From Armatimonadota bacterium (GTDB lineage: Bacteria; Sysuimicrobiota; Sysuimicrobiia; Sysuimicrobiales; Humicultoraceae): 59,936 nucleotides of DNA. Where the stretch lies: contig JAVKHP010000001.1 in NCBI GenBank assembly GCA_031459855.1, positions 1,765,906 to 1,825,841 of the forward strand, given 5' to 3'. The notes beneath the pieces were generated by a model, which was not told where the DNA came from, did not search any database, and saw only the letters and a list, made by a program, of their open reading frames with translations. Of this stretch, positions 9,952 to 19,921 are shown piece by piece (positions within the stretch are counted from its first letter, which is position 1; each line of letters opens with the position of its first letter). The position numbers and the translations under genes are program-made.

Positions 9952-10073
9952 CCGCCCTGGCCTGCTGGCAGGAGGCGGACGACATGCCCGTGACGTGGTC
10001 CGACGACGACATGAGGGGCTGCGGAAGGACTGCCCGCACGGCGTGCTGGCGCGACGCGCCCGGAGGCGCGTGA
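9948..10073 (+). other. Relay mini-ORF 1, 41 codons (TIM-barrel gene to MFS)
   Basis: The GTG at 9948 overlaps the upstream stop (GTGA). The frame is open for 41 codons and its TGA overlaps the GTG of the next mini-ORF at 10070. The encoded peptide is Cys/Trp/Arg-rich with no recognisable domain. Translation is inferred. Confidence 0.4.
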
Positions 10074-10144
10074 CGGTGCCGAAGCCACGGCCTCGTGCTG
10101 ACGCCGGCCACCGTGCAGGGTGCCACGCCCCCGGAGGCGCATGA
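10070..10144 (+). other. Relay mini-ORF 2, 24 codons, with duplicated RBS-start
   Basis: The GTG at 10070 lies in the word CGGAGGCGCGTGACGGTGCC. The same word recurs 71 bp later as CGGAGGCGCATGACGGTGCC, which is the RBS and start of the MFS gene. The mini-ORF ends with a TGA that overlaps the MFS ATG (ATGA). Both frames begin M-T-V-P. It looks like a tandem duplication of the translation start. Confidence 0.45.
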
Positions 10145-11334
10145 CGGTGCCGGACGATCGCAACCTGCGCTGGCTGTTTGCGGCGCTCTTCCTGTGGACG
10201 TTTGGGCTGGGCCTGTACGAGCAGCTGGTGCCCATCTTCGCGCGCCAGCTCGGGGCCTCGCCGGTGCAGCTCGGCACGCTGTTCAACCTGCGCTACCTGG
10301 GGTTGGCCGCGGGCTACCTGCTCGGCATCGTCGTCGCCGACCGCTGGCGCCGCCGGACCGTCATCGTCGCCTCGTGGGTGGCGGCCACGCCGGTGCCGCT
10401 GCTGCTGGCCGCCGCGCCCACCCACCTGTGGCTGCTGCCGGGCCTGCTGCTGTACGAGGTCACCTTCTTCGGGTTGCCCGCGGTGCACGCGTTCGTCGCC
10501 GAGCGCGTCGCGCCCGACCGCCTGGCGTCCACCTTCGCTGCCATGGGCGTGGTGACGTCGACCGCCTTCCTGGTGGCGCCGACCCTGGGCGGCGTCGTCG
10601 CCGACCGCTGGGGGATTCGCGCGACCCTGCTGCTGGCCGCGGCCTGCTACCTGCTCTCGACCGCGATGGTGCTGCAGGTGCGCGGGGCGCCGCCGGCTCC
10701 GCGTGCGGCGCACGCCGCGGTGCTGCTGACGTGGACGGCGCTGCGCCCGCTGCTGCCCGTGCTCCTGCTGGTCGCGGGACCCGCGGTCGCGGTGCTGGCA
10801 GCAGCGCCGTTCCTCACGCCGTTCCTGCGCGAGGTCCGGGGGCTCTCGCTGTCGGAGATCGGGTTCCTGGGCTCGATGACCGCGGTCGGCGGGGTGGGGC
10901 TCACCGCGATCGGTGGCCGGTTGGGCGACCGGGTGGGTATCGTCCCGGCCCTGGTCGGTGCGCTGCTGGTTTACGCGCTGGGGATGGCCCTGCACGTCTA
11001 CGGCCCGGCGGCGCTGCTGCCGGTAGCGTCGATCCTGCGGGCGCGGGCGCCCGCCGCCGCGCTGGGGCAGGCCCTGGTCGGGGCGCACGCGCCCGCGGAG
11101 GTGCTCGGCCGGGCGTTCGCCGTCTCGGGGATGCTGGCGGCCGGGCTTGCGGCGCTTGGCGTGGTGGTCGGCGGCTATGCCTACCGGGCCGACCCCGTGC
11201 TGCCCGTGGTGCTGGCAGCGGGGCTCGCGGTCGCGCTGGCCGGGGCCGTGCTGTGGGTGCGCCCCGTCCCCGCCGCGGCGGCAACCGCGCGCCGACAGGT
11301 GGCAGAGGCCGCACGCGACGCGCCGGCGCCGTGA
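10141..11334 (+). CDS. MFS transporter
   Basis: From the ATG at 10141, preceded by GGAGGCGC, this is a 397-residue polytopic protein with about 12 TM helices. The loop 2-3 signature is degenerate (LGIVVADRWRRRTVIV). A central loop separates two six-helix halves, and the second half repeats the signature as GGRLGDRVGIVPAL. It closes the sugar operon, so it may export a product or import a related substrate. An in-frame start at 10120 is possible but lacks an RBS. Confidence 0.85.
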   Translation: MTVPDDRNLRWLFAALFLWTFGLGLYEQLVPIFARQLGASPVQLGTLFNLRYLGLAAGYLLGIVVADRWRRRTVIVASWVAATPVPLLLAAAPTHLWLLPGLLLYEVTFFGLPAVHAFVAERVAPDRLASTFAAMGVVTSTAFLVAPTLGGVVADRWGIRATLLLAAACYLLSTAMVLQVRGAPPAPRAAHAAVLLTWTALRPLLPVLLLVAGPAVAVLAAAPFLTPFLREVRGLSLSEIGFLGSMTAVGGVGLTAIGGRLGDRVGIVPALVGALLVYALGMALHVYGPAALLPVASILRARAPAAALGQALVGAHAPAEVLGRAFAVSGMLAAGLAALGVVVGGYAYRADPVLPVVLAAGLAVALAGAVLWVRPVPAAAATARRQVAEAARDAPAP

Positions 11335-13598: not shown

Positions 13599-14858
13599 CT
13601 ACGCGATCCTGCGAATCACCGACACGCCCACCCGAGCCCCGAGCGCCAGCGCAGCGGCGAACACCCACCCGTTGAGGGCCAGCGAGGGAATCGCCGAGAA
13701 GAACGCGCCGATCGTGCACCCCATGGCCAGCGAGGCACCATACCCCATCAGCAGGCCACCGGCGAGGGCCTGCACGTAGCGCCGACGCTCGGCGGGCCGG
13801 CGGATCCGGAACTCGCCGGCCAGCAGCGCGCCCGCGAAGGCACCGGCGACCATGCCGACGTCGAGGGTCAACGCGTGGGAGATCCACGGGCCCCGCGTGC
13901 CGACCAGGGCGCACCCCGACAGCGTGCCGGCCCCCTGGAGCGGGCCCGGCCCCACGCCAGCGATCTCCAGCACCCCGATGGCCCAGCGGGAGAGTTCGCC
14001 GGTCACGCCCCACGGCATGTGCGCCAGGTAGAGCCACACGTTCAGCACGCCGAGCGCCACGCCCCCCGCCGTCGGCGACCATCCGCGCACCAGCACGGCC
14101 GCCAGCGCCACTGCCAGACGATCGAGGAGCCCCGCGCCCGATGGCGCGGCGAGGCTTGACCCCGCTGCGGGGCCCGGCGCCACAGGGGACGGTGCTGCCG
14201 GCAGCCCGGCGCGGGTCTCCCGCCACACCACCAGCACGTACGCCACCGCGAGCAGCGCGAACGTCACGGCGAGGCCACCCACGTACCCGCCTGCCGCCGG
14301 GAGCCACACCACCGGGCTGCGCGCAATGGACGCGCGCCACCAGAAGTTCCAGGTGTGGGCACCCGCCCCCAGCCCTGCCAGGATCCCCATCAGGGCCACC
14401 GCGGACGCCACATACCCTTCCCCGATGCGGTACAGCGAACCCGAGACGCACCCGCCGGCCAGCACCATGCCCACCCCGAACAGGATCCCCCCGAGCACCA
14501 GGTGGAGCCCGAGGGGAACCGCGTGCGCCTCCGGGGCCACCATCCCCAGCGTGGGATCCGGCACCATGCGCCACATGAGCAGGGCGAACCCCGCACTGGC
14601 CACGGCCAGCCCGGCCAGGATGCCCCGCATGATGCGACCAGACCCGAAGAGGAACAGGTCCCGAAAGGCGGAGGCGAAGCAGAACCTGCTGCGCTGCAAC
14701 ACGAACCCCAGGGCGACCCCAAACGCCCAAAAAACGCCCGTGCGGGGGTCGCCCGGCGCGGCATGCGCCCAGAGGACGCCCGCCACGAGCGTCGCCCCGA
14801 GCGCGGCGATCGCGCCAGCGGCGAGCGACACCACCGGAGGCTCGCGACGACCGTTCAC
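13599..14858 (-). CDS. YeeE/YedE family (TsuA-like) thiosulfate/sulfur transporter
   Basis: This 419-residue membrane protein has many helices and the three conserved cysteine motifs of the YeeE/TsuA thiosulfate channel: GGCVSGS (Cys137), LSGCALVG (Cys316) and MGCTIGAFFSA (Cys381). An extra Cys60 lies in QRSRFCFASAFRD, typical of YedE. A Pro/Ala-rich cytoplasmic loop (~219-242) joins the two halves. It starts 4 nt after the rhodanese stop and is followed by TusA, giving a thiosulfate or polysulfide uptake-and-relay unit. Confidence 0.9.
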   Translation of the reverse strand: MNGRREPPVVSLAAGAIAALGATLVAGVLWAHAAPGDPRTGVFWAFGVALGFVLQRSRFCFASAFRDLFLFGSGRIMRGILAGLAVASAGFALLMWRMVPDPTLGMVAPEAHAVPLGLHLVLGGILFGVGMVLAGGCVSGSLYRIGEGYVASAVALMGILAGLGAGAHTWNFWWRASIARSPVVWLPAAGGYVGGLAVTFALLAVAYVLVVWRETRAGLPAAPSPVAPGPAAGSSLAAPSGAGLLDRLAVALAAVLVRGWSPTAGGVALGVLNVWLYLAHMPWGVTGELSRWAIGVLEIAGVGPGPLQGAGTLSGCALVGTRGPWISHALTLDVGMVAGAFAGALLAGEFRIRRPAERRRYVQALAGGLLMGYGASLAMGCTIGAFFSAIPSLALNGWVFAAALALGARVGVSVIRRIA

Positions 14859-14862
14859 CGTG

Positions 14863-15759
14863 CTACCGTCCTACCGGCGTGTCGGTGCGGTTGCCCCACT
14901 CCTCCCAGCTACCGTCGTAGTTGCGCACCTGGGGGTACCCCAGCAGGTACTTCAGCACGAACCACGTGTGCGCCGCGCGCACCCCCGTCTGGCAGTACAC
15001 GATCACCTCGCGGTCCCGCGGGAACCGCGGCCCGTAGATGGCGCGCAGGGCCTCCGGCGTCTTGAACGTGCCGTCGGGGTTGACGGCGGCCGTCCACTCG
15101 ATGTTCACGGCGCCCGGGACGTGACCGCCGCGGGCCGACCGCACGTCCAGGCCCGCGTACTCTCGCGGGCTGCGCGCGTCGCAGACGAGCCGGCTGCCCA
15201 GCCGGGCCAGCAGGTAGTCGGTCGTGGCGAGGATGTTCTCGTCCCGTGGGGGCGCGACGTACGTCGAGGGTGTCGGCGTGCTCCCGCCGGTGACCAGCGG
15301 CCGGCCCTCGGCGACCCAGCGCCGGCTGCCGCCGTCGAGGATCGCGACGCGCGGGTGGCGGTAGAGCTTGAAGATCCAGAACGCCCGCGCCGCGAACAGG
15401 CTGCTGGTGTCGTCGTAGAGGACCACGCTGTCCTCGTTCCGGATGCCCAGCCGCCGTGCCATGGCCTGGAACTGCTCGCGGGTGGGAGCCATGCCTTTGA
15501 CGGGATGCGTGGGATCCGTCAGGTCCGTCTGCCAGTGCACGTAGACGGCGCCCGCGATGTGCCCACGGGCGTAGACCCCGGGCGTACTGCTCACGTCGAT
15601 CAGGCGCACGGCCGGGTGCGTGAGGCGGGCGGCCACCCACGCGGCGTTTACCAGGGCCTGTGTGCGCCCCAGGCCGGCGGCGGGCTGGCCGGACACCGCA
15701 GGGGCCAGCGCGCCCACCACGACCGAGATGGTCACGAAGACCGGTACGATCGCGAGCAT
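14863..15759 (-). CDS. Secreted two-domain rhodanese (thiosulfate/3-mercaptopyruvate sulfurtransferase)
   Basis: From the ATG at 15759 the 298-residue product has a signal peptide (MLAIVPVFVTISVVVGALAP, then SGQPAAG) and two rhodanese domains. The N-terminal one is inactive (VVLYDDTSSL replaces the Cys loop). The C-terminal one carries the active loop CQTGVRAAHT. It would act outside the cytoplasmic membrane, generating or transferring sulfane sulfur for the YeeE channel encoded next. Earlier in-frame starts reach 15951 but would bury the signal peptide. The RBS is weak (GGCAGAG). Confidence 0.85.
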   Translation of the reverse strand: MLAIVPVFVTISVVVGALAPAVSGQPAAGLGRTQALVNAAWVAARLTHPAVRLIDVSSTPGVYARGHIAGAVYVHWQTDLTDPTHPVKGMAPTREQFQAMARRLGIRNEDSVVLYDDTSSLFAARAFWIFKLYRHPRVAILDGGSRRWVAEGRPLVTGGSTPTPSTYVAPPRDENILATTDYLLARLGSRLVCDARSPREYAGLDVRSARGGHVPGAVNIEWTAAVNPDGTFKTPEALRAIYGPRFPRDREVIVYCQTGVRAAHTWFVLKYLLGYPQVRNYDGSWEEWGNRTDTPVGR

Positions 15760-15977
15760 CCTCTGCCACCACGTCGCGCACACCGTCGCACTTGCCCGGG
15801 CCGTTGAACCCGTCCTGGAGAGGGGGACCCAGAAGCCCCCACGCATCTTCCACGCTCTGCCTGCACGCTGCATCTGCCAGGTCACCTCCCTGGTGCCGAT
15901 TCCATTCAAGACGCGGCGCACGGCCGGCCCCTCGCCGGCCATACGCGTCAACGTCGTGTGACGGTTGTCGGGGGGAA

Positions 15978-16259: not shown

Positions 16260-17033
16260 TTACGCGCTGAGGCCACCCAACGCTTCCCAGATCCGCCGCT
16301 CGAGGGCCGAGAACTCTGCGGCGAAACGCATCGCGGCGGTCCGCGGGCGGGGGAGGGTGACGTCAACGTGGGCCTTGATGCGCCCGGGCCGTGCCGTGAG
16401 GACCAGCACGCGATCCGCGAGGAAGACCGCCTCCTGGATATCGTGCGTCACCAGGACCACCGTCTTCCGCCGGTGCTCCCACAGGCGGTGCAGCTCCGTC
16501 TGCATCCGCGAGCGCGTTTGCGCGTCCAGCAGACCGAAGGGCTCGTCCAGCAGCAGGATCGATGGATCGGTGGCCAGCACGCGCGCCACCTCGACCATCT
16601 TCCTCATGCCCGCCGACAGCTCTTTGGGATAGGCCCGGGCGTAGGCACCCAGGCCGGTGAACTCCAGCAGCCCGTCGACGATCGCCTGGCGGGCCGCCGC
16701 CCCATCGTCCCGCGCCAGCAGGCCCAGCTCGAGGTTCTCGCGGACGGTCATCCACGGGAAGATCGCCTCCTCCTGGAAGACGTAGCCCCGTTCCGGGCCC
16801 GGTCCGGACACGGGACGGCCCTCGCAGAGGACGCGACCCTCGGTCGGCTGCAGGAGCCCGGCGATGATGCGCAGGAGCGTCGTCTTGCCGCACCCCACGG
16901 GGCCCACGACGGCCAGGAACTCGTGGTCGAAGACCTCCACGCTGACCCCCTCGAGGGCACGGGTCGGCACGCGGCCAGCGTAGGTATGGCCGATACCCGC
17001 GACCGCCAACCGTACCCTACGCGAGATGGGCAT
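16260..17033 (-). CDS. ABC transporter ATPase, TauB/SsuB type
   Basis: This 257-residue nucleotide-binding subunit has Walker A GPVGCGKTT (residues 44-52), Q-loop YVFQEEAIFPW, signature LSAGMRK (139-145; the usual LSGGQ is altered to LSAGM), Walker B ILLLDEPFGLLD and the H-loop in VTHDIQEA. It follows two TauC-type permeases. No substrate-binding protein is encoded in this cluster. The start ATG lies inside one copy of a 33-bp direct repeat. Confidence 0.9.
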   Translation of the reverse strand: MPISRRVRLAVAGIGHTYAGRVPTRALEGVSVEVFDHEFLAVVGPVGCGKTTLLRIIAGLLQPTEGRVLCEGRPVSGPGPERGYVFQEEAIFPWMTVRENLELGLLARDDGAAARQAIVDGLLEFTGLGAYARAYPKELSAGMRKMVEVARVLATDPSILLLDEPFGLLDAQTRSRMQTELHRLWEHRRKTVVLVTHDIQEAVFLADRVLVLTARPGRIKAHVDVTLPRPRTAAMRFAAEFSALERRIWEALGGLSA

Positions 17034-17099
17034 GGGCCACGGCGCCGCGGGCCGCCGCGTGGGCGACCAACCGTACCCTATGCGAGATGGGCATGGGCC
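17006..17099. repeat. 33-bp direct repeat, 61-bp period, at the permease/ATPase junction
   Basis: 17006-17038 and 17067-17099 are identical except for one C/T. The right copy encodes the permease C-terminus and its TAG stop. The left copy carries the ATPase start ATG. Each copy contains both signals in their original overlapping arrangement, so this is a tandem duplication of a junction where permease stop and ATPase start formerly overlapped by 17 nt. Confidence 0.9.
17017..17094 (-). other. Relay mini-ORF, 25 codons, created by the junction duplication
   Basis: The ATG at 17094 lies 14 nt before the permease stop. The frame runs 25 codons to a TAG at 17019-17017, which lies 14 nt past the ATPase ATG. 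The overlaps at the two ends are therefore the same, as expected from a duplicated junction. The peptide starts like the ATPase (MPIS) and ends like the permease (AHAHLA). Confidence 0.5.
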
Positions 17100-17884
17100 T
17101 CACGCCTCGCCATCCAGCCCGTCGCCCTGCCGTGGACGGCGAGCAAGAGGCGATCGCTGGCGAGCACCACGAGCCCGATGGCGACGATGCCGATGACGAT
17201 CGTCGACACGCGCGGGTATGTGGCCGCCAGCGTGAGGAGGTAGCCCAGGCTGGGGGAGTGGGGGTCGATCAGCTCGGCTACCACCATGGTGGTCCAGGCG
17301 AGGGCCACCCCGATGCGCACGCTGGAGAAGATCTCGGGCAACGCGCACGGCAAGACCACCCGACGCCACGTCATGGCTCGGGGGAGCCCCAGGACCGCGG
17401 CAGCCTCGAGGTAGACGCGCGGCACGCCGGAGGCGCCCTGGAGCACCCCCAGGGAGACGACGGCCCCAACGCCGGTGGTGATGAGGAGGATCCTGGCCAA
17501 CTCCCCAACTCCGAACCACAGCACGTACAGCGGCAGGAGGGCCAGCGCCGCTGCAAACCGCACCAACGTCACCCAGGGCAGCAGGAGGGCTCCCATCCGC
17601 GGCTCGGCCGCGGCCGCAAGCCCCACCACCAGCCCCACTGTGGTCCCCGCCAGCACGCCGGCCAGGACCCGGCCGCCGCTGACGAGGACCCCGCCCATAA
17701 GGGTCCCCGAGCGCAGCAGGAAGACCGTCTCGGTCGCCAGGGAGCCGTAGGTGGGTAGGAACTCCACGTTCTCGATGTAGTGCGCCCCCATCCAGACGCG
17801 CCGGGGCAGATAGGGGCTGCTGATCTGGGCCACCGCGCCGTAGAGCACCGCCAGGGTTGCGAAGGCTACCAGTGCGTGGCGCAC
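17078..17884 (-). CDS. ABC transporter permease, TauC/SsuC type
   Basis: This 268-residue BPD-type permease has an N-terminal helix (LVAFATLAVLYGAVAQI), a periplasmic segment, four or five further helices and the EAA loop YLEAAAVLGLPRAMTWRRVV. It starts 3 nt after the stop of the other permease. Together they form a heterodimeric importer for nitrate/sulfonate/taurine-like substrates by family; the actual substrate is unknown. Its 3' end lies in the duplicated 33-bp repeat. Confidence 0.88.
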   Translation of the reverse strand: MRHALVAFATLAVLYGAVAQISSPYLPRRVWMGAHYIENVEFLPTYGSLATETVFLLRSGTLMGGVLVSGGRVLAGVLAGTTVGLVVGLAAAAEPRMGALLLPWVTLVRFAAALALLPLYVLWFGVGELARILLITTGVGAVVSLGVLQGASGVPRVYLEAAAVLGLPRAMTWRRVVLPCALPEIFSSVRIGVALAWTTMVVAELIDPHSPSLGYLLTLAATYPRVSTIVIGIVAIGLVVLASDRLLLAVHGRATGWMARREAHAHLA

Positions 17885-19115: not shown

Positions 19116-19921
19116 TCACCCCCGGGCCCCCGTGGCGCCCGATGACGATATGACGACGGCGCCGGCGCGGGTGGCGGCCTCGACGGCGGATGGGTGGATC
19201 ACGAAGCCGAAGAGCACAGGCACCGGGGCGCCCGGCAACACCGGGGCGAGGGTCTGGACCTGCCTCCAGAACGCTTCCACGTCCCGGCCGTGGATGCGGC
19301 TCTTCACCTCGCCGACCACTACGATGCGTTCGCCGTCGCGCGTCCCTCGCCGTACAGGTCGACTTCGACCTCTTCACCGTCCACCGTGAGGAAGCGTCGC
19401 TCCAGGGCGCCCACGCGGATCCCGCAGTGTTTCTCGAGGTAGGCGGGAGCGACTTCGCGCGCGAGGTCCTCCAGGGTGAACCCGAGGGTCTCGGCAAGCG
19501 TGCCAAGCTGTCGGGCTGTCTCCCGCTGGGCCTCGGCGAGGCGGTGCATCTCCTCCACGAGTCGGGTAACCTGGCCCTCCGTGCGACGCTGCGCATCGGC
19601 CAGCTGTTCGAGGTGGGTCTCGGTGCGCTGCTGGGCGGCGGCCAGTTGCTCGAGGCGGGTCTCGGTACGCTGCTGGGCGGCGGCCAGCTGTTCGAGGCGG
19701 GTCTCGGTGCGCTGCTGGGCGGCGGCCAGCTGCTCGAGGCGGGTTTCGGTACGCTGCTGGGCGGCGGCCAGCTGCTCCACCCGCACCGCCAGCTGGCGCA
19801 CGATTTCCGGCAGCGAGAGCAGCTCGTCGGTCAGCAGCAGACGGCGCAGTTGGGCCCGCCACTCGGCGCGCTTCTCCAGCGCCCGCAGCAAACCCTCGAA
19901 GTCGCGGAGCGTAAAAGGCAT
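19116..19921 (-). pseudogene. Coiled-coil PD-(D/E)XK nuclease-like protein (DUF3782 type), frameshifted
   Basis: The gene opens at ATG 19921 (MPFTLRDFEGLL). It encodes a coiled coil with four near-identical 14-residue repeats (RTETRLEQLAAAQQ, residues 57-112), then a nuclease-like domain: LEKHCGIRVGALER and EEVEVDLYGEG, with the acidic motif. The frame then ends at 19319. The rest of the domain (VVGEVKSRIHGRDVEAFW, the E-x-K motif, then PVLFGFVIHPSAVE) continues in another frame to 19116. Removing two bases from the CGCGCG run at 19337-19342 restores one ~268-residue protein. It is a disrupted gene, a phase-variable gene or a sequencing error. This family is common in filamentous and thermophilic bacteria; its role is unknown. 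Confidence 0.8.
19586..19783. repeat. 42-bp tandem repeats encoding a two-heptad coiled-coil unit
   Basis: Four full 42-bp units (19586-19753) plus a partial fifth encode RTETRLEQLAAAQQ. The 14-residue period equals two heptads, so copy-number change would lengthen or shorten the coiled coil without a frameshift. Confidence 0.85.

Follow-up and report, generated by a model that had tools for sequence, protein, structure and literature searches.

In the window (the whole stretch of 59,936 nucleotides that was analysed), 61 bp at the junction between the permease and ATPase genes of an ABC transporter were very probably inserted off target by the type I-E adaptation complex, Cas1e-Cas2e. The anatomy of the site, the donor of its insert, the empty site in a relative, the I-E system of the genome and a genome-wide excess of repeats at the periods of the native array were observed directly. 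The 61-bp gain pushed the two genes apart, created a new short reading frame between them, and has counterparts at many other sites in the same genome.

The two genes are read from the minus strand, and the features of their junction are collected in Table 1. Beside the TauC/SaoP-like transporter, at window 13599-15951, lie a rhodanese with two domains and a YedE/TsuA-like sulphur transporter, a sulphur-uptake neighbourhood. The junction carries a 33-bp direct repeat, with copies at 17006-17038 and 17067-17099 that are identical at 32 of 33 positions and spaced 61 bp apart. On the minus strand, either copy contains ATGCCCATCTCGC(A/G)TAG, in which an ATG and a TAG overlap by 17 nt. The TAG within the permease-side copy is the stop of the permease, whereas the ATG within the ATPase-side copy (17031-17033) is the start of the ATPase, for which a TTG at 17007-17009 is an alternative start. 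An earlier, sequence-only reading of this DNA had described the repeat with its single mismatch and period of 61, the division of stop and start between the copies, the presence of both signals in a 17-nt overlap in each copy, and a 25-codon frame with the same overlap at either end (the relay frame); all of these were confirmed, and its frame arithmetic was right (61 + 14 = 75 = 3 × 25). In a whole-genome search at up to three mismatches, the junction repeat was found nowhere beyond its two copies, and a reversed control pattern had no match in the genome at the same threshold.

Table 1. Coordinates (window positions) of the features at the permease/ATPase junction and of a second repeat-spacer-repeat site in the window.
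Feature	Position	Strand	Remarks
ABC transporter ATPase	16260..17033	-	SaoA/TauB-like, below equivalog cut-offs
28-bp putative target-site duplicate, ATPase-side	17008..17035	-	second copy of the duplicated stretch
Relay frame, 25 codons + stop	17017..17094	-	9 codons ATPase-start-like, 11 peptidase-derived, 5 permease-end-like
33-bp putative inserted fragment (spacer)	17036..17068	-	full exact donor match 17035-17068, 34/34
28-bp putative target-site duplicate, permease-side (leader-side under the type I-E parse)	17069..17096	-	boundary from the G of the donor AAG and the 28 + 33 rule (PMC10011333)
ABC transporter permease	17078..17884	-	BPD_transp_1; TauC/SaoP-like, below equivalog cut-offs
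Repeat-spacer-repeat scar, period 71, repeat 26/28	10054..10154	+	insert 10083-10119 matches C1:821537-821573 at 35/37

By its sequence, the event brought in DNA that came from another place and evidently duplicated the target site. The insert copies C1:574368-574401 exactly (34/34); this stretch lies 1.21 Mb from the junction, in the part of an M28 peptidase gene that encodes its PA domain. This 34-bp match is made up of the 28 bp between the repeat copies and 6 bp of the repeat edges; these edge matches leave the length of the insert at 28-34 bp, and the 61-bp event parses into 28 bp of duplicated target and a fragment of 33 bp. The 28-bp middle matches exactly one other place in the genome, C1:574372-574399, and no further place within 3 mismatches. 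When 460 kb of the genome were compared all against all, exact repeats of this length with non-homologous flanks proved very rare: only two exact matches reached 34 bp, both with unrelated flanks and both the inserts of repeat-spacer-repeat sites (this list excludes the stretch that carries the CRISPR locus and another that contains a long duplication). We rejected the possibility that the insert is a mobile element, given that its 28-bp core occurs at two places in the genome only, one of them inside a peptidase domain.

The sequence-only reading had attributed the 61 bp to a tandem duplication that separated two once-overlapping genes. The insertion at an overlapping junction stands, and the tandem duplication falls. 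A plain tandem duplication of 61 bp, with a middle that has since diverged, agrees with the two near-identical copies and with the unduplicated overlap of the relative described below, but it would have copied all 61 bp, and the middle 28 bp match neither flank and instead belong to a 34/34 copy of another gene, the peptidase. Outside the repeat, identity at period 61 is 9/28 on one side and 6/28 on the other, and the 61-bp unit is thus not a tandem copy of itself. We consider such an origin practically inconceivable.

Orthologues of both genes are present in G035 (record MNEU01000075.1, Armatimonadetes bacterium 13_1_40CM_64_14), in which the permease is 59% and the ATPase 60% identical. This was the only close permease orthologue in the 193 genomes searched (next best match 34%), and no further one was found at E 1e-30 among the 43 genomes of the phylum. 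A scan of the named genomes with the permease alone gave no match, and a second scan of them with two-sequence alignment returned the G035 relative again and nothing else. In G035, the permease ends in a TAA that shares an 11-nt overlap with the probable, predicted TTG start codon of the ATPase, with no spacer between the genes; the unduplicated overlap that the sequence-only reading had proposed to look for in the nearest relative is therefore there. From a conserved tryptophan codon near the end of the permease to the conserved TYAG of the ATPase, the window has 130 nt and G035 has 69 nt (130 − 61 = 69). Because the distance in G035 is shorter by exactly 61 nt, 61 bp were gained in the lineage of the window, at a junction that already overlapped. 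A loss of 61 bp in G035 instead is unlikely, since donor and insert have remained identical and the two copies are one base apart. No Cas1 was detected in G035, the assembly of which is 77% complete.

At about C1:2884-2896 kb, the genome of the window encodes a complete type I-E system (Cas1e, Cas2e, Cas3, Cse1, Cse2, Cas7, Cas5 and Cas6e, each above the NCBIfam cut-off in at least one model), with a native array of 51 repeats at periods of 61 (34 times), 62 (15 times) and 63 (once). One native spacer (C1:2885367-2885389) matches a local tandem repeat at C1:499944 of the same genome at 22/32 bases; this match is partial and was set aside. According to PMC10011333, the E. coli I-E protospacer is 33 bp long with the PAM AAG, the G of which is the last base of the repeat; staggered cuts duplicate the repeat during adaptation, host DNA is sometimes captured, and AAG is seen in up to 50% of cases in naive adaptation. 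The window site bears the marks of this process, namely a gain of 61 bp, a 33-bp fragment derived from other DNA, an AAG at the donor, and Cas1e and Cas2e in the same genome. On the minus strand of the donor the boundary reads AA|GG, and the first base of the fragment is the G of AAG. Among the three period-61 sites with a known donor, a clear AAG occurs only at the window's (1/3), which weighs against this origin. The site is not a canonical CRISPR array: its 28-bp repeat matches the native repeat at 10-11 of 28 positions (best register 11/28, P 0.80; fixed register 10/28, P 0.30).

On these grounds, we propose that the M28 peptidase gene of the cell itself supplied a 33-bp prespacer, cut out beside an AAG PAM, and that staggered attack then joined this prespacer to 28 bp within the overlapping permease/ATPase junction. 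Gap filling would then have copied these 28 bp to give a CRISPR-like locus with a single spacer, repeat(28)-spacer(33)-repeat(28), away from the array. The genes have lost their mutual overlap because the duplicated 28 bp happened to carry both the permease stop and the ATPase start, and each gene now overlaps the new 25-codon frame instead. The insert presumably does not serve as a source of crRNA guides, because it matches its own chromosome perfectly beside an AAG.

In a census of the genome, we counted two-copy direct repeats (at least 22/24 matches, periods 30-250) in a sample of 100 pieces, each of 20 kb, together with the window (2,059,936 bases, about 65% of the genome). The native array and N-containing stretches were left out, and the list of 91 repeats came down to 83 once eight runs whose length exceeded their period had been discarded. 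Of the 83 repeats, 10 had period 61, 4 had period 62, 33 lay at 69-80 and 16 at 81-250; the other 20 had shorter periods outside these classes. The background, from 7 repeats over 11 neighbouring periods (56-60 and 63-68), was 0.64 per period; 14 repeats were thus observed at periods 61-62 vs. about 1.3 expected (Poisson P about 1e-10), the 14 including the window's own site and two from one three-repeat cluster (C1:2780126, 2780190). The proportion of 61 to 62 among them resembles that of the native array. The excess was kept at five other thresholds, though it shrank: the counts at 61 and 62 were 3 and 3 at 23/24, and 0 and 1 at 24/24. The cluster itself (C1:2780126-2780276) consists of three repeats and two spacers, with periods of 62 and 61, and is possibly a neo-array that has taken up a second spacer.

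A fifteenth site, of period 61 with an indel between its copies, holds a 34/34 spacer from another gene, which we take, from its sequence, to be phosphohexomutase-like. Full-length donors were found, in the 65% of the genome sampled, for 3 of the 15 period-61/62 sites and for 3 of the period-69-80 class; an exact scan of viral contigs for two period-61 spacers, out of the 15 sites, gave no match. As a group, the repeats of the 14 ungapped sites resemble the native CRISPR repeat (Fisher 6e-7, with random genomic 28-mers as background), and the window's repeat adds nothing to this likeness (11/28, P 0.80). The likeness is absent in 31 sites of period 69-80 (0.96; a length limit reduced this class from 33) and in 25 sites at other periods, meaning below 56 or above 84 (0.97). 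Scars lay in coding-like frames at 3 of the 13 period-61/62 sites that could be scored (1 of the 14 was unscorable) and at 11 of 31 period-69-80 sites, vs. 1834 of 3000 random sites. Since these counts are below random, the sites avoid coding-like frames.

The census also weighs on two other explanations. The insert could have arrived by templated insertion, either through replication template switching of an MMBIR-like kind or through end joining with templated filler at a staggered break. Microhomologies of 2 bp (GG) and 4 bp (GGCC) at the donor junctions would then mark two switches, and Ku is encoded in the genome; however, this leaves unexplained both the 14 ungapped sites at 61-62, which are the array's own periods, and the likeness of their repeats to the CRISPR repeat, and we regard it as very unlikely. 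An assembly or sequencing artefact, such as a chimeric join, is extremely improbable: the site is known from a single assembly, but its copies differ by one base, neither gene is disrupted, and many independent sites share its geometry.

Two relatives were scanned for both classes of scar, with expected counts taken from the rates of the window genome. G008, which belongs to the same family and has no Cas1 of any kind, yielded 0 sites at 61-62 and 0 at 69-80 in 400 kb (2.7 and 6.4 expected). G009, which has cas1e and lacks a match to the solo Cas1 described below, yielded none of either class in 173 kb of short contigs (about 1.2 and 2.8 expected). The finding in G009 speaks weakly against cas1e alone being sufficient, and it fits the absence of the 69-80 class.

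At the period-69-80 sites, the lengths of both repeat and insert vary, and in the three of these sites that have a donor, as read by hand, the repeats measure about 34-37 and the inserts about 36-44. One member of this class lies in the window (Table 1), where the repeat copies hold a GGAGG and the start codon of an MFS-like gene. At C1:969530-969625 (L043), a period-72 and a period-80 scar carry inserts from neighbouring parts of one gene, with a few mismatches; a foreign homologue may be their true source. The window also contains 42-bp coding tandem repeats in a coiled-coil-like protein (19608-19738), which are unrelated to the scars.

Outside any recognised CRISPR locus, the genome encodes a solo Cas1, 592 aa in length and bearing long extensions (C1:1959903-1961678; L077 826-2604, minus strand), near a DNA methylase and a PLD-like protein. 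It has matches in G025 (56%), G027, G033 and G028, and G025 has this relative of the solo Cas1 together with no cas1e match. A scan of chosen open frames neighbouring the solo Cas1 gave no match to a Cas family. No PF09827 Cas2 was found in the genome by a search that also misses the Cas2e of the I-E locus, so a divergent Cas2 could escape it. It is conceivable, if doubtful, that the genome bears a heavy load of ectopic integrase scars made with two rulers, that of the I-E complex (61/62 bp) and that of the solo Cas1 as a second integrase (69-80 bp). The solo Cas1 is a candidate maker of the 69-80 scars, and its link to them is a guess; a second, lost CRISPR system would be as good a source. 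To our knowledge, the function of solo Cas1 enzymes is mostly unknown, and the second ruler hints at a possible activity for them. If the guess is right, a stand-alone Cas1 can spread short pieces of the chromosome through a genome, with a long duplication of the target, and in nature Cas1 enzymes reshape gene starts and operon junctions as well as arrays.

At the permease/ATPase junction, the in-frame relay is a 1-in-3 by-product of the length of the insert, and its peptidase-derived part is read in the donor's own frame. Before the insertion, the ATPase would have had a single ATG, with a predicted anti-Shine-Dalgarno pairing of −6.4 kcal/mol. The ancestral Shine-Dalgarno sequence would now stand ahead of the relay ATG, and direct coupling from permease to ATPase would have been lost. 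Reinitiation is reported to be almost abolished near 20-nt gaps (PMC10666635). The ATPase would thus now be started via coupling through the relay, which would carry ribosomes to it, or from its internal TTG, or with a lower output.

Whether the relay frame is a selected device that preserves translational coupling between permease and ATPase is a matter of function, not of origin, and is compatible with insertion by Cas1e-Cas2e. The identity of the 17-nt overlap at both ends speaks for it, as do the predicted pairing of −6.4 kcal/mol before the relay ATG vs. −1.7 before the ATPase ATG and, in H. volcanii and E. coli, the near disappearance of coupling once a gap reaches about 20 nt (PMC10666635). 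An in-frame outcome is nonetheless expected by chance in one case of three, and this is a single example; moreover, the TTG at ATPase codon 9 has an SD-like site of its own (predicted −4.4), and the RNA fold is not unusual (z 0.15). We thus think selection for coupling rather unlikely. An RNA attenuator within the insert was rejected on the same value, as the fold is no better than that of shuffled sequences.

Taken by itself, the window site would be an instance of off-target spacer integration, a known process. By the literature searched, three things appear to be new, namely how many scars a single natural genome carries, the pair of rulers and the remodelling of an operon junction; a search over partial texts, with few subscription papers among them, gave no report of many such scars in one natural genome. 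As a case from a natural genome, the site suggests that the memory-making enzyme of CRISPR is able to act as a general insertion mutator, writing pieces of host genes into other sites, and that the duplication of stop and start signals can yield new short reading frames between the genes of an operon. The fixed 61-bp ruler offers a simple test of how frequent such events are in any genome, by which the origin of new CRISPR loci, of intergenic gaps and of short proteins becomes directly testable.

Nivala, Shipman and Church (2018) reportedly described off-target (non-canonical) spacer integration by the E. coli type I-E Cas1-Cas2, under overexpression of Cas1-Cas2, together with what are said to be several putative natural cases. 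PMC11788318 and PMC9456107, both of which cite that study, likewise treat off-target spacer integration as known from E. coli, and the former gives 61 bp as the length added per new spacer. For type II-A Cas1-Cas2, off-target integration is on record in vitro (PMC6895254); those were likely half-site events on a plasmid, whereas the window genome holds full-site scars. As with casposons and solo Cas1 enzymes (PMC4046053 and PMC9939771), a Cas1 outside a recognised CRISPR locus is present here; unlike those of casposons, the inserts here are short only, with none of transposon size. The closest likeness is to E. coli I-E off-target integration, in which spacer-sized DNA reportedly likewise enters a non-array chromosomal site and a repeat-length target is duplicated. 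In contrast to the E. coli overexpression case, about 15 I-E-type scars are present here in 65% of one natural genome, and one of them remodels an operon junction.
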